Origin: Olivibacter domesticus
GTDB taxonomy: Bacteria; Bacteroidota; Bacteroidia; Sphingobacteriales; Sphingobacteriaceae
NCBI RefSeq assembly: GCF_900109575.1
Contig: NZ_FOAF01000018.1
Coordinates: 1-37,444, forward strand
Reading direction: 5' to 3'
Length of the DNA stretch: 37,444 nucleotides
Shown piece after piece: positions 36,186 through 37,444 of the stretch. The position numbers were made by a program, and so were the translations under genes. A model generated the notes under the pieces. That model had not been told where the DNA came from. It saw only the letters and a list, made by a program, of their open reading frames with translations, and ran no database searches. Position 1 is the stretch's first letter. Each line of letters begins with the position of its first letter.

Positions 36186-36934
36186 ACTCAATTTTCTAAT
36201 AATCTGATTTTCAATATTTGAAGGTTAAAATGTTAATAACCTATCGGAGATTCGAAGTTCACAAAAAAAAACAACTAAAAAAATTAAAATTTAAATAATG
36301 TTTAAAATCACTGATAATCAAGGATTTAATTTGGTTTTTTTGTCTTTTGTTGGGCTTGTTTATATTAATGGAATAATTTTCCACATTATAAACATTGATG
36401 ACAAAATTACGTGAGGTAATATAGTGGTTTTTCTCTAACTTTTAAGGAAATTTAAAATTGTTTTTATCGAGTGTTGTTTGCCGGTAGTTTTGACTAAGTC
36501 CTGATTTTGCTCGACCTATTCTAAGTAATTGTTTATGACTTTTAGTAGGCCAAGTTTTGGTTACGTATTTGGTAAGCTGAGGTTATACTGTTTGATTCGT
36601 ACATTAGTGTTTACCAAGTGAGGTTTGACTATTCTTATTATTCTCTATGTTTCGTTGGTTTTAAGATTCGAGCACCTAGATCGCTATTTGTTGTACTGCG
36701 CTCAAAATATTCAATTTTTCGCAAGAAAAACGATTACGAGGTGAATCTATATAAATAGGATAGGTTGTCTATATAGGATAGGTTGTTTAAGGAAGTGTTC
36801 TGAAGTCGTACGTTACTGCTTGTAAAGGCTTGTCTTTTATGGGTAGCCTTGCCTTGCGGGGGGACGCTTTTCTCCAAGATTTCTAAAATAAAAGTACTTA
36901 GAAGATAAAAAGAAGGCATAAAGAGATCCGGTTT
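36186..36934. other. Gene-free region upstream of dnaA
   Basis: This stretch carries no convincing gene. The part next to dnaA (36230-36420) is very AT-rich with A- and T-runs. One sequence, TTTTCCACA (36377-36385), differs by one base from a DnaA box. The only other structure seen is the short tandem repeat at 36755-36786. No consensus dnaA promoter was found. Confidence 0.6.
36755..36786. repeat. Short tandem repeat, two units of 18 bp
   Basis: ATAGGATAGGTTGT occurs at 36755-36768 and again at 36773-36786, an 18-base period with four bases between. It is of unknown meaning. Confidence 0.8.
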
Positions 36935-37010
36935 GATCGTAAACAGATCGTTTATTTACCGTAAATCCATCGTGAATTTTACGATGGAAACACGATCCAT
37001 TTACGATGAG
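36935..37010. promoter_or_regulatory. Array of seven ATCGTnAA-like half-sites at 11-bp spacing
   Basis: Four units read forward: GATCGTAAACA (36935), GATCGTTTATT (36946), TACCGTAAATC (36957) and CATCGTGAATT (36968). Three follow inverted: TTTACGATGGA (36978), AACACGATCCA (36989) and TTTACGATGAG (37000). The CGT/ACG cores are centred at 36939, 36950, 36961, 36972, 36982, 36993 and 37004. That is 11 bases apart with a single 10, so all lie on about one face of the helix. The turnover forms CCATCGT...ACGATGG (36967-36987). The array lies 150-230 bases before the rRNA promoter P1. It is probably a protein-binding array; the protein is unknown. Confidence 0.7.
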
Positions 37011-37163
37011 ATATAAGATCTATCCGGGATCATTACAATTTTCAGGCATGTTCAGTCCGGTCTCCTGTATGGGGCCGGGGCGGCATCGGGGGGCTTCCGT
37101 GAAAAAAAAAGGGGCTGTTTTCCAGGCCTTTGCGCAGCAGGTAAAAAAAAGGGGGCGTCAGTA

Positions 37164-37194
37164 TTTGGAAAAGGGGAAAAGGTGCGTATCTTTG
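37164..37194 (+). promoter_or_regulatory. rRNA operon promoter P1
   Basis: TTTG (37164-37167), a 19-base spacer and TATCTTTG (37187-37194) match the Bacteroidota consensus exactly. An A-run (37143-37150) lies just upstream, as in strong promoters. Transcription would start near 37200. Confidence 0.8.
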
Positions 37195-37278
37195 CACTCC
37201 GCAAACGAAGGGATGTGGGAAGTTGTTTGAAGCAGGTGAGGGGTAACAGAGGGGGTTGAAAAAATATTAAAAAAATAT

Positions 37279-37309
37279 TTTGGAAAGGCGGAAAAGATTT
37301 CTACCTTTG
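37279..37309 (+). promoter_or_regulatory. rRNA operon promoter P2
   Basis: TTTG (37279-37282), a 19-base spacer and TACCTTTG (37302-37309). It is preceded by an A/T-rich stretch (37258-37281). The spacer resembles that of P1 (GGAAAGGCGGAAAAG against GGAAAAGGGGAAAAGG), so the two look like duplicates 115 bases apart. Confidence 0.85.
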
Positions 37310-37444
37310 CAGCCCCGCAGGGGGAAACCGGAGGCGCGATGCCGATGGGGATGAAAGAAAAGAGGGTTTCGTGCAGTGATGTGACGGGATACCACAACAG
37401 GCAGGAAGCGCGAGCGGAAGGCCGGAAAGTTCTTTAAGGAAATG
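37310..37444 (+). other. Leader of a ribosomal RNA operon (16S lies beyond the window)
   Basis: This GC-rich untranslated stretch starts at P2 and runs off the window. It has no reading frame of substance. It ends in GGAAAGTTCTTTAAGG (37424-37439), which contains a boxA-like GTTCTTTAA (37429-37437) of the kind bound by the Nus antitermination complex. No mature 16S sequence is present yet. That an rRNA operon follows is inferred from the tandem promoters and the boxA. Confidence 0.75.
37429..37437 (+). promoter_or_regulatory. boxA-like antitermination site
   Basis: GTTCTTTAA resembles the rRNA boxA core (GCTCTTTAA in E. coli) and sits at the expected place in the leader before 16S. Confidence 0.55.

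Follow-up and report, generated by a model that had tools for sequence, protein, structure and literature searches.

Close to an rRNA operon of Olivibacter domesticus, in the gap that separates it from a divergently transcribed dnaA gene, half-sites recur once per helical turn. Does this array serve the rRNA promoters or dnaA, as the initial annotation had proposed, or is it one copy of a more general chromosomal element? The window, meaning the whole stretch of DNA that was analysed, comprises 37,444 nucleotides of contig NZ_FOAF01000018.1 (assembly GCF_900109575.1).

The window array has an uninterrupted 11-bp period

The initial annotation described seven half-sites at 36935-37010, four forward and three inverted. 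CGT is indeed found at 36938, 36949, 36960 and 36971 and ACG at 36981, 36992 and 37003, and the core centres that it gave (36939, 36950, 36961, 36972, 36982, 36993 and 37004) match exactly. A 4+3 pattern with 21 specified bases has an exact match in the window, and none of 100 dinucleotide shuffles of the whole window matched it at up to three mismatches, in agreement with the view that such phasing is unlikely by chance. Two details had to be revised. The 11-bp steps stand but the 10-bp step at the turnover does not: the CG dinucleotides start at 36938, 36949, 36960, 36971, 36982, 36993 and 37004, so that all six steps are 11 bp from CG to CG. The apparent shorter step arose because CGT was compared with its own complement, ACG, and is an artefact of the choice of core. 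The motif ATCGTnAA was too loose, and the part common to the half-sites is YCGT/ACGR (ATCGT three times, ACCGT once, ACGAT three times).

The array in the window is one unit short. A paralogous rRNA operon on contig C23 bears a perfect 4+4 array, longer than that of the window by exactly 11 bp, or one unit. The features of the locus are collected in Table 1; the phased A residues of the left outer zone occupy positions -47, -36, -25 and -14 of the genus consensus described below. The D1 repeats are rRNA promoter-like, judged against the promoter consensus. Two 18-bp direct repeats (TAAATAGGATAGGTTGTC-like) are also present at 36752-36787, between dnaA and the array.

Table 1. Coordinates of the array and neighbouring features in the window
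Feature	Position	Strand	Remarks
dnaA	34758..36191	-	divergent left neighbour
Left outer zone	36878..36935		A at 36891, 36902, 36913 and 36924, phased at 11 bp with the CG steps
Core array	36936..37007		seven YCGT/ACGR half-sites, CG every 11 bp, dyad near 36977
Forward half-site 1 (TCGT)	36937..36940	+	
Forward half-site 2 (TCGT)	36948..36951	+	
Forward half-site 3 (CCGT)	36959..36962	+	
Forward half-site 4 (TCGT)	36970..36973	+	
Inverted half-site 1 (ACGA)	36981..36984	-	
Inverted half-site 2 (ACGA)	36992..36995	-	
Inverted half-site 3 (ACGA)	37003..37006	-	C23 paralogue has one more 11-bp unit
Right outer zone (putative)	37008..37064		would mirror the left zone, shorter by the lost unit
First rRNA promoter-like repeat (TTTG...TATCTTTG)	37164..37196	+	repeat D1; ~215 bp right of the dyad
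Second rRNA promoter-like repeat	37279..37311	+	repeat D1

Arrays recur in Olivibacter, mostly away from rRNA operons

A BLAST search with the window array against five genomes of the genus retrieved further copies away from rRNA. Using a 24-base 4+4 pattern with up to three mismatches, we identified 14 distinct arrays in four of the five Olivibacter genomes (two in G000, four in G001, three in G003, five in G004 and none in G002), while the reversed control pattern gave no arrays in the same genomes. Two arrays lie at rRNA, three at tRNA-Pro/ybeY and nine elsewhere; these nine have unrelated protein genes as neighbours and no Rfam RNA gene within 5 kb (one has a tRNA at 5.5 kb). Conservation elsewhere in the genus is strong, and arrays are not as frequent in shuffled sequence or with reversed patterns. 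Within the window's own genome, only two of the four rRNA upstream regions examined carry an array, those on contigs C2 and C9 being without one. With these absences, and with most genus copies located off rRNA, we rejected a dedicated rRNA or dnaA element; dnaA is merely the other neighbour of the window copy. The further suggestion that a protein binds along one face of the helix fared better, a nucleoprotein being the likeliest cause of the phasing.

The three arrays between ybeY and tRNA-Pro (L041, L046 and L050, in three of five species) are orthologous. In this gap the array and the tRNA promoter align well, and the stretch between them aligns poorly. Arrays L043 and L045 share the same HD-domain/DUF6266 gap. 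L043, L045 and L052 all adjoin genes of DUF6266, a family without known function, and L052 lies beside a different DUF6266 gene. When protein ORFs alone were considered, 4 of 13 arrays fell in divergent gaps, which is no divergent preference; with rRNA and tRNA genes added by hand, the count was 9 of 14.

To describe the anatomy of the element, we took 13 of the 14 arrays, excluding the window copy with its missing unit, and combined their 26 half-elements into a consensus. The core unit is AYCGTAAAT every 11 bp. The flanking positions -25, -36 and -47 are A in all 26 half-elements, -14 in 25, -58 in 23 and -59 in 22, and these phased A/T positions carry the 11-bp register onward, giving a whole element of ~195 bp.

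The base before CGT is genome-specific. It is C in 2 of 15 units in G000, 2 of 27 in G001, 15 of 23 in G003 and 26 of 39 in G004, or 4/42 in the first pair against 41/62 in the second when pooled (p = 2e-4, permutation on array labels). The same preference holds at orthologous loci, and the GC content of the spacers shifts oppositely (p = 0.02). These sequence comparisons, made among four related genomes, suggest a sequence-reading factor that co-evolves with the arrays, for which such a base would be expected; shared ancestry or homogenisation could also have produced it. Base pairing within arrays was compared with 2000 permutations, which reached the observed value 84 times for the whole core, 155 times for the spacers, 1081 times for the AAA columns and 336 times for the flanks. 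Only the Y/R position of the inner units stood out (3/2000), a signal accounted for by the genome-specific base in front of CGT. We rejected covariation of the arms as proof that a hairpin forms.

A second family of 11-bp units is present in the window's genome. Its gap between ybeY and tRNA-Pro, where three sister species have the palindromic family, holds a directional run of GAGTCCGTAGT-like units (L150:2076-2120, near 180,390 of contig C3). Further examples are L162, L166, L159 and L171; by eye, similar runs lie on contigs C6 and C12 of this genome, and G003 has two. A single genome thus holds more than one spelling. We rejected phages or plasmids as the source of the Olivibacter array, as the C23 copy had no match in PLSDB (72,556 records, BLAST) or INPHARED.

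Arrays are found in few genomes and vary in spelling

We scanned one genome per species for 84,980 species with a 3+3 pattern (YCGT/ACGR at 11 bp, dyad CGTN7ACG) and obtained 36 stretches in 11 genomes. One match, in Streptomyces (L073), lies in coding-like DNA and was put aside. The others, which by their record titles belong to three phyla, comprise 16 stretches in two Cloacimonadota MAGs, six in the Bacteroidales MAG RUG649, three in the Bacteroidetes MAG RUG12227, three in two Prevotella genomes, two each in Bacteroides, Dysgonamonadaceae and Olivibacter XZL3, and one in a Verrucomicrobia MAG. With up to three mismatches allowed, each of the 10 genomes examined, Streptomyces apart, gave 5-198 raw forward matches (a number that includes overlapping frames) against 0-1 for the reversed pattern. 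Sampling by taxonomy gave a similarly sparse picture. In a phylum sample of 395 genomes, only the window's own contained an array; in a family sample, 11 of 301 genomes matched at up to two mismatches (reversed control, one), of which five were not genuine and one was doubtful by eye. The seven genomes of the family that matched outside the genus resemble coding tandem repeats by eye at their matches, except G092 and possibly G171.

The letters of the unit vary by lineage: it is CCGTTTGTTGT in Prevotella, CCGTTCTTTCT in Dysgonamonadaceae and CCGTGGGTCAA in one Cloacimonadota MAG. The outer zones of the Prevotella arrays consist of [TACTATAACCA]-like units whose TA step keeps the register of the core CG, a reading for which one underlying scoring was offset and some rows were out of register. 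Dysgonamonadaceae arrays reach 26 and 30 CG units. Whole elements measure ~195-320 bp in Olivibacter, Prevotella and Dysgonamonadaceae, and the CG span across lineages is 57-321 bp. In a Bacteroides genome (G307, BRZ_SL bin118; e.g. C17:6456 and C55:10339), TCGGGACATG followed by TTCGTTCCAAG-like 11-bp units was seen in at least 12 places.

The general array pattern was not found in viral contigs. Eight IMG/VR contigs (L255-L262, e.g. L256 and L258), two of which resemble copies of others in the set, contain direct CCGTTTGTTGT-like units as in the Prevotella arrays. Among three of these contigs whose neighbouring genes were searched, we identified one Erf-like annealing gene and one RecE-like exonuclease gene. 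It is possible that such phages exploit the host's putative array-binding factor.

Period, gap type and spacing in a densely populated genome

For a whole-contig analysis we used seven contigs of RUG12227 (1,185,425 bp, with C3 lacking its last 79 bases); the choice was not blind, five of the seven (C2, C3, C4, C6 and C9) being already known to match. A home-made codon-usage caller assigned 926 genes, with 87% of the sequence coding. Chains of CG with at least 6/7 sites at period 11 numbered 62 in intergenic and 3 in coding DNA, and no intergenic chain was found at periods 7-10 or 12-15 in the 1,185,425 bp. Coding chains at the codon multiples 9, 12 and 15 numbered 23, 32 and 24. At a threshold of at least 5/6 sites we obtained 72 arrays after merging, with 0-1 in controls at other periods, which corresponds to about one copy per 16 kb. 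Their CG span is 57-178 bp (quartiles 90-128). A lag test that ignores the letters, applied to one RUG12227 contig, found lag 11 best in 8 of 49 gaps and all other lags together in one. On a whole Prevotella contig (219 kb), lag 11 was best in 4 of 92 gaps, as was lag 8, and the four lag-11 gaps were all tandem and none divergent.

Arrays occupied 35 of 88 divergent gaps, 29 of 254 tandem gaps and 6 of 43 convergent gaps (divergent vs tandem, p = 4e-8; divergent vs convergent, p = 0.003). Half of the gap-assigned arrays (35/70) are therefore divergent, though divergent gaps make up 88 of 385. We prefer these whole-contig counts to earlier orientation counts, which came from array-selected loci and a rough ORF rule that took no account of RNA genes.

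The copies also keep apart from one another. Among 65 spacings the median is 12.4 kb and a single one is under 6 kb (907 bp), while a class-matched null of random gaps gives 18-19 such spacings, with a minimum of 9 in 4000 draws. Gene layout does not explain this spacing, because divergent gaps taken all together give 24 of 81 spacings under 6 kb. A strict rule (5/5 CG) left 0 of 63 spacings under 6 kb; a looser one (4/5 CG) gave 80 arrays with 6 of 73, yet also 19 chains at period 9. The spacing rule is seen in one lineage, the copies in Olivibacter and Prevotella being too few.

Array positions are conserved and arms change by whole turns

Sorting by a 24-base core with up to four mismatches separated two types, palindromic and polar (type II). 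For the polar type, 39 of 40 copies yield the consensus [CGTATCCTCTC]3 CGACAAAAAAC CGTTAAACAAC CGTTGAACAGT [CGGAGCGGGTA]3; its conservation declines near -44 and +77, and no terminal repeats were seen by eye. Polar direction is independent of gene direction (II+, 6 tandem- and 5 tandem+; II-, 3 and 4). On contigs C3, C5, C6 and C9 of genome G304, convergent gaps hold 0 of 31 palindromic and 6 of 38 polar arrays, and those six are all of one orientation class.

RUG649 carries 18 arrays in 198,936 bp, with six spacings of which the smallest is 6,640 bp. Because its proteins are 86% identical to those of RUG12227 (median; 84 of 171 with a match), the two are not independent evidence for the spacing rule. 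They allow positions to be compared: across 22 adjacent-gene gaps common to both, arrays are present in both genomes in four, in neither in 18 and in only one in none, the other 14 RUG649 arrays falling outside the comparison.

We aligned eight pairs of orthologous or paralogous arrays (four RUG, three Prevotella and one Olivibacter paralogue). All seven clear arm indels are multiples of the unit, six of 11 bp and one of 33 bp; the exceptions are a 1-bp change at the dyad in three RUG pairs and edge gaps of 3 bp and 10 bp in two RUG arrays. In the orthologous Prevotella arrays L120 and L123, the 5-base centre is inverted (ATTTG vs CAAAT) in nearly identical surroundings, so the palindrome centre must have flipped at least once. 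Within a single genome, copies also agree well at positions other than CG, which may reflect recent copying.

A model for the arrays and its alternatives

We interpret the arrays as dyad-symmetric DNA-wrapping platforms that would probably act as supercoil insulators. The comparisons above establish the architecture, the exact period and the positional conservation and, in one lineage, a preference for divergent gaps and a minimum spacing; the protein, the wrapping and the topological function are inferred. The complete proposal, set out below, is a tentative one whose likelihood we put a little short of evenly balanced. Each platform, mostly dyad-symmetric, would present one flexible pyrimidine-purine step exactly per 11 bp over ~110-320 bp, the step being CG in the core, with phased A/T or TA taking its place further out in some lineages. 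A putative architectural complex would bind cooperatively on one helix face, touching the DNA once per turn, and would wrap or underwind it at 11 bp per turn. The wrapped array would then act as a barrier to supercoils on the upstream side of promoters, most of all where two promoters diverge, and dense copies would split the chromosome into ~10-kb segments.

A complex with one contact per turn is suggested because the letters drift while the register, dyad, pyrimidine-purine step and positions persist, and because arm indels are whole turns. Relaxed DNA has 10.5 bp per turn; as the period of 11.0 exceeds this, full occupancy would imply underwinding or a positive wrap, and with it a barrier to supercoil diffusion. 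Under the twin-domain model, negative supercoils gather in divergent gaps, and both the divergent-gap preference and the spacing fit a supercoil barrier. Counted against the platform proposal are the arrays of 26-30 units, which exceed a gyrase-sized footprint, the very patchy distribution (1/395 in the phylum), the Prevotella lag test, the orientation of Olivibacter arrays by ORFs alone, the conservation of non-CG positions and a spacing rule seen in a single lineage.

Gyrase is the best known positive wrapper of DNA, and the arrays might be its strong sites, with the 11-bp phasing serving a positive wrap on the GyrA C-terminal domains while the letters drift. The published motif spans ~130 bp, with two 47-bp wings of phased G/C wrapped on the C-terminal domains, and is likewise long, dyad-related and helically phased (PMC6379681, PMC12324340, PMC12393610); a CG every 11 bp fits it, as do the CG spans and the 12.4-kb median spacing in RUG12227, and BIMEs are described as gyrase-cut candidate domain barriers (PMC6379681, PMC6907758). 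However, that motif has a centre of ~36 bp between its periodic wings, whereas the array CG register runs uninterrupted through the dyad, and it is degenerate, whereas YCGT in the arrays is nearly invariant. Whole arrays are also longer in Olivibacter, Prevotella and Dysgonamonadaceae, and gyrase is described as present in nearly all bacteria (PMC12324340) while arrays are rare, so we consider this reading unlikely. We think it distinctly unlikely that they are selfish palindromic repeats spread by copying, held apart by a rule resembling target immunity and without host function. Many alike copies per genome with lineage-specific sequence, Prevotella subfamilies whose asymmetric ends can be recognised by eye, the minimum spacing and the patchy distribution all agree with mobility. 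Against it, inspection of type II and Prevotella copies by eye revealed neither the fixed ends nor the terminal inverted repeats or target-site duplication expected of a MITE, unit number varies, and phase outlasts spacer divergence. Positions are concordant in 22 of 22 common gaps, though only four hold arrays, and no transposase was found among the 25 most-matched Pfam families of array neighbours.

The neighbouring genes bear on a reading close to that of the initial annotation, an operator for a sequence-specific regulator, for example of the OmpR/PhoB type, bound head-to-tail on 11-bp units and acting on rRNA or adjacent genes. The arrays fit the 11-bp direct repeat units of such operators (PhoP boxes in Streptomyces are described as runs of 11-nt units, PMC7866108), the start codon lies at a median of 195-403 bp from the array centre across five groups, and the base before CGT is genome-specific. 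A functionally related target set is where the arrays differ. We searched 123 of 132 neighbouring ORFs across lineages (nine omitted as likely spurious, cut off or orthologue duplicates; long proteins shortened to 450 aa) and found 149 Pfam families with none in more than six proteins, on which ground a regulon defined by neighbouring genes was rejected. The lack of shared function, the density in RUG12227 and the spacing rule make an operator improbable, as does the fact that both kinds of dyad, with half-sites pointing inwards or outwards, keep CG in register, with 1-bp shifts only at the centres of some RUG arrays. We regard it as very improbable that the palindrome acts as a cruciform or RNA hairpin (terminator or attenuator). 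All 13 arrays tested folded better as single-stranded DNA than their shuffled versions, with z between -2.6 and -10, pairing in the Olivibacter core is slightly above permutation and the loop inversion in Prevotella is compatible with it; yet the Olivibacter outer zones pair no better than chance, polar arrays are not full palindromes and, in RUG12227, arrays are enriched in divergent gaps, so that neither of the two transcripts should read across them.

The wrapping-platform proposal can be extended to an undescribed class of chromosomal element that is defined by rules of geometry (a pyrimidine-purine step per 11.0 bp, a dyad and a minimum spacing of ~6 kb) and not by letters. Such elements would be sequence-encoded domain rulers, marking supercoil domain boundaries of ~10 kb in some Bacteroidota, Cloacimonadota and Verrucomicrobiota. 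We put this forward as a doubtful but real possibility. It bears on what sets topological domain borders in bacteria: if true, borders would be predictable from sequence and could be deleted singly, and the arrays would offer a natural test of the 11.0-bp period against supercoiling and a path to a DNA-organising protein.

Comparison with known elements

Consistent with the initial annotation, we recognised no described element of this form in the open-licence literature, as represented by titles and the starts of abstracts. ParR binds cooperatively to the 11-bp iterons of parC in plasmid R1, a plasmid locus with the parMR genes. The arrays share this period, but they have several chromosomal copies, and the C23 array had no BLAST match among the plasmid records searched. 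The window copy lies between dnaA and rRNA, and neither parM nor parR was among the 25 most-matched of the 149 families of other neighbours.

Like REP and BIME sequences, the arrays are intergenic, dispersed, palindromic and present in many copies, and BIMEs are proposed supercoil barriers and gyrase sites (PMC6907758, PMC6379681). REPs are described as 20-40 bp long and located mainly between unidirectional and convergent ORFs (PMC3733652), whereas the arrays consist of 11-bp units over ~70-320 bp and, in one MAG, half are divergent. In PHO boxes, flanking 11-nt units are reported to be filled at higher PhoP levels (PMC7866108); the tandem 11-bp units are alike, but the arrays are mirror-image and dispersed, with no regulon seen. 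A genome-wide periodic signal of ~11 bp is commonly tied to negatively supercoiled DNA (PMC4132750). The arrays have the same period and, unlike this genome-wide bias, are discrete elements.
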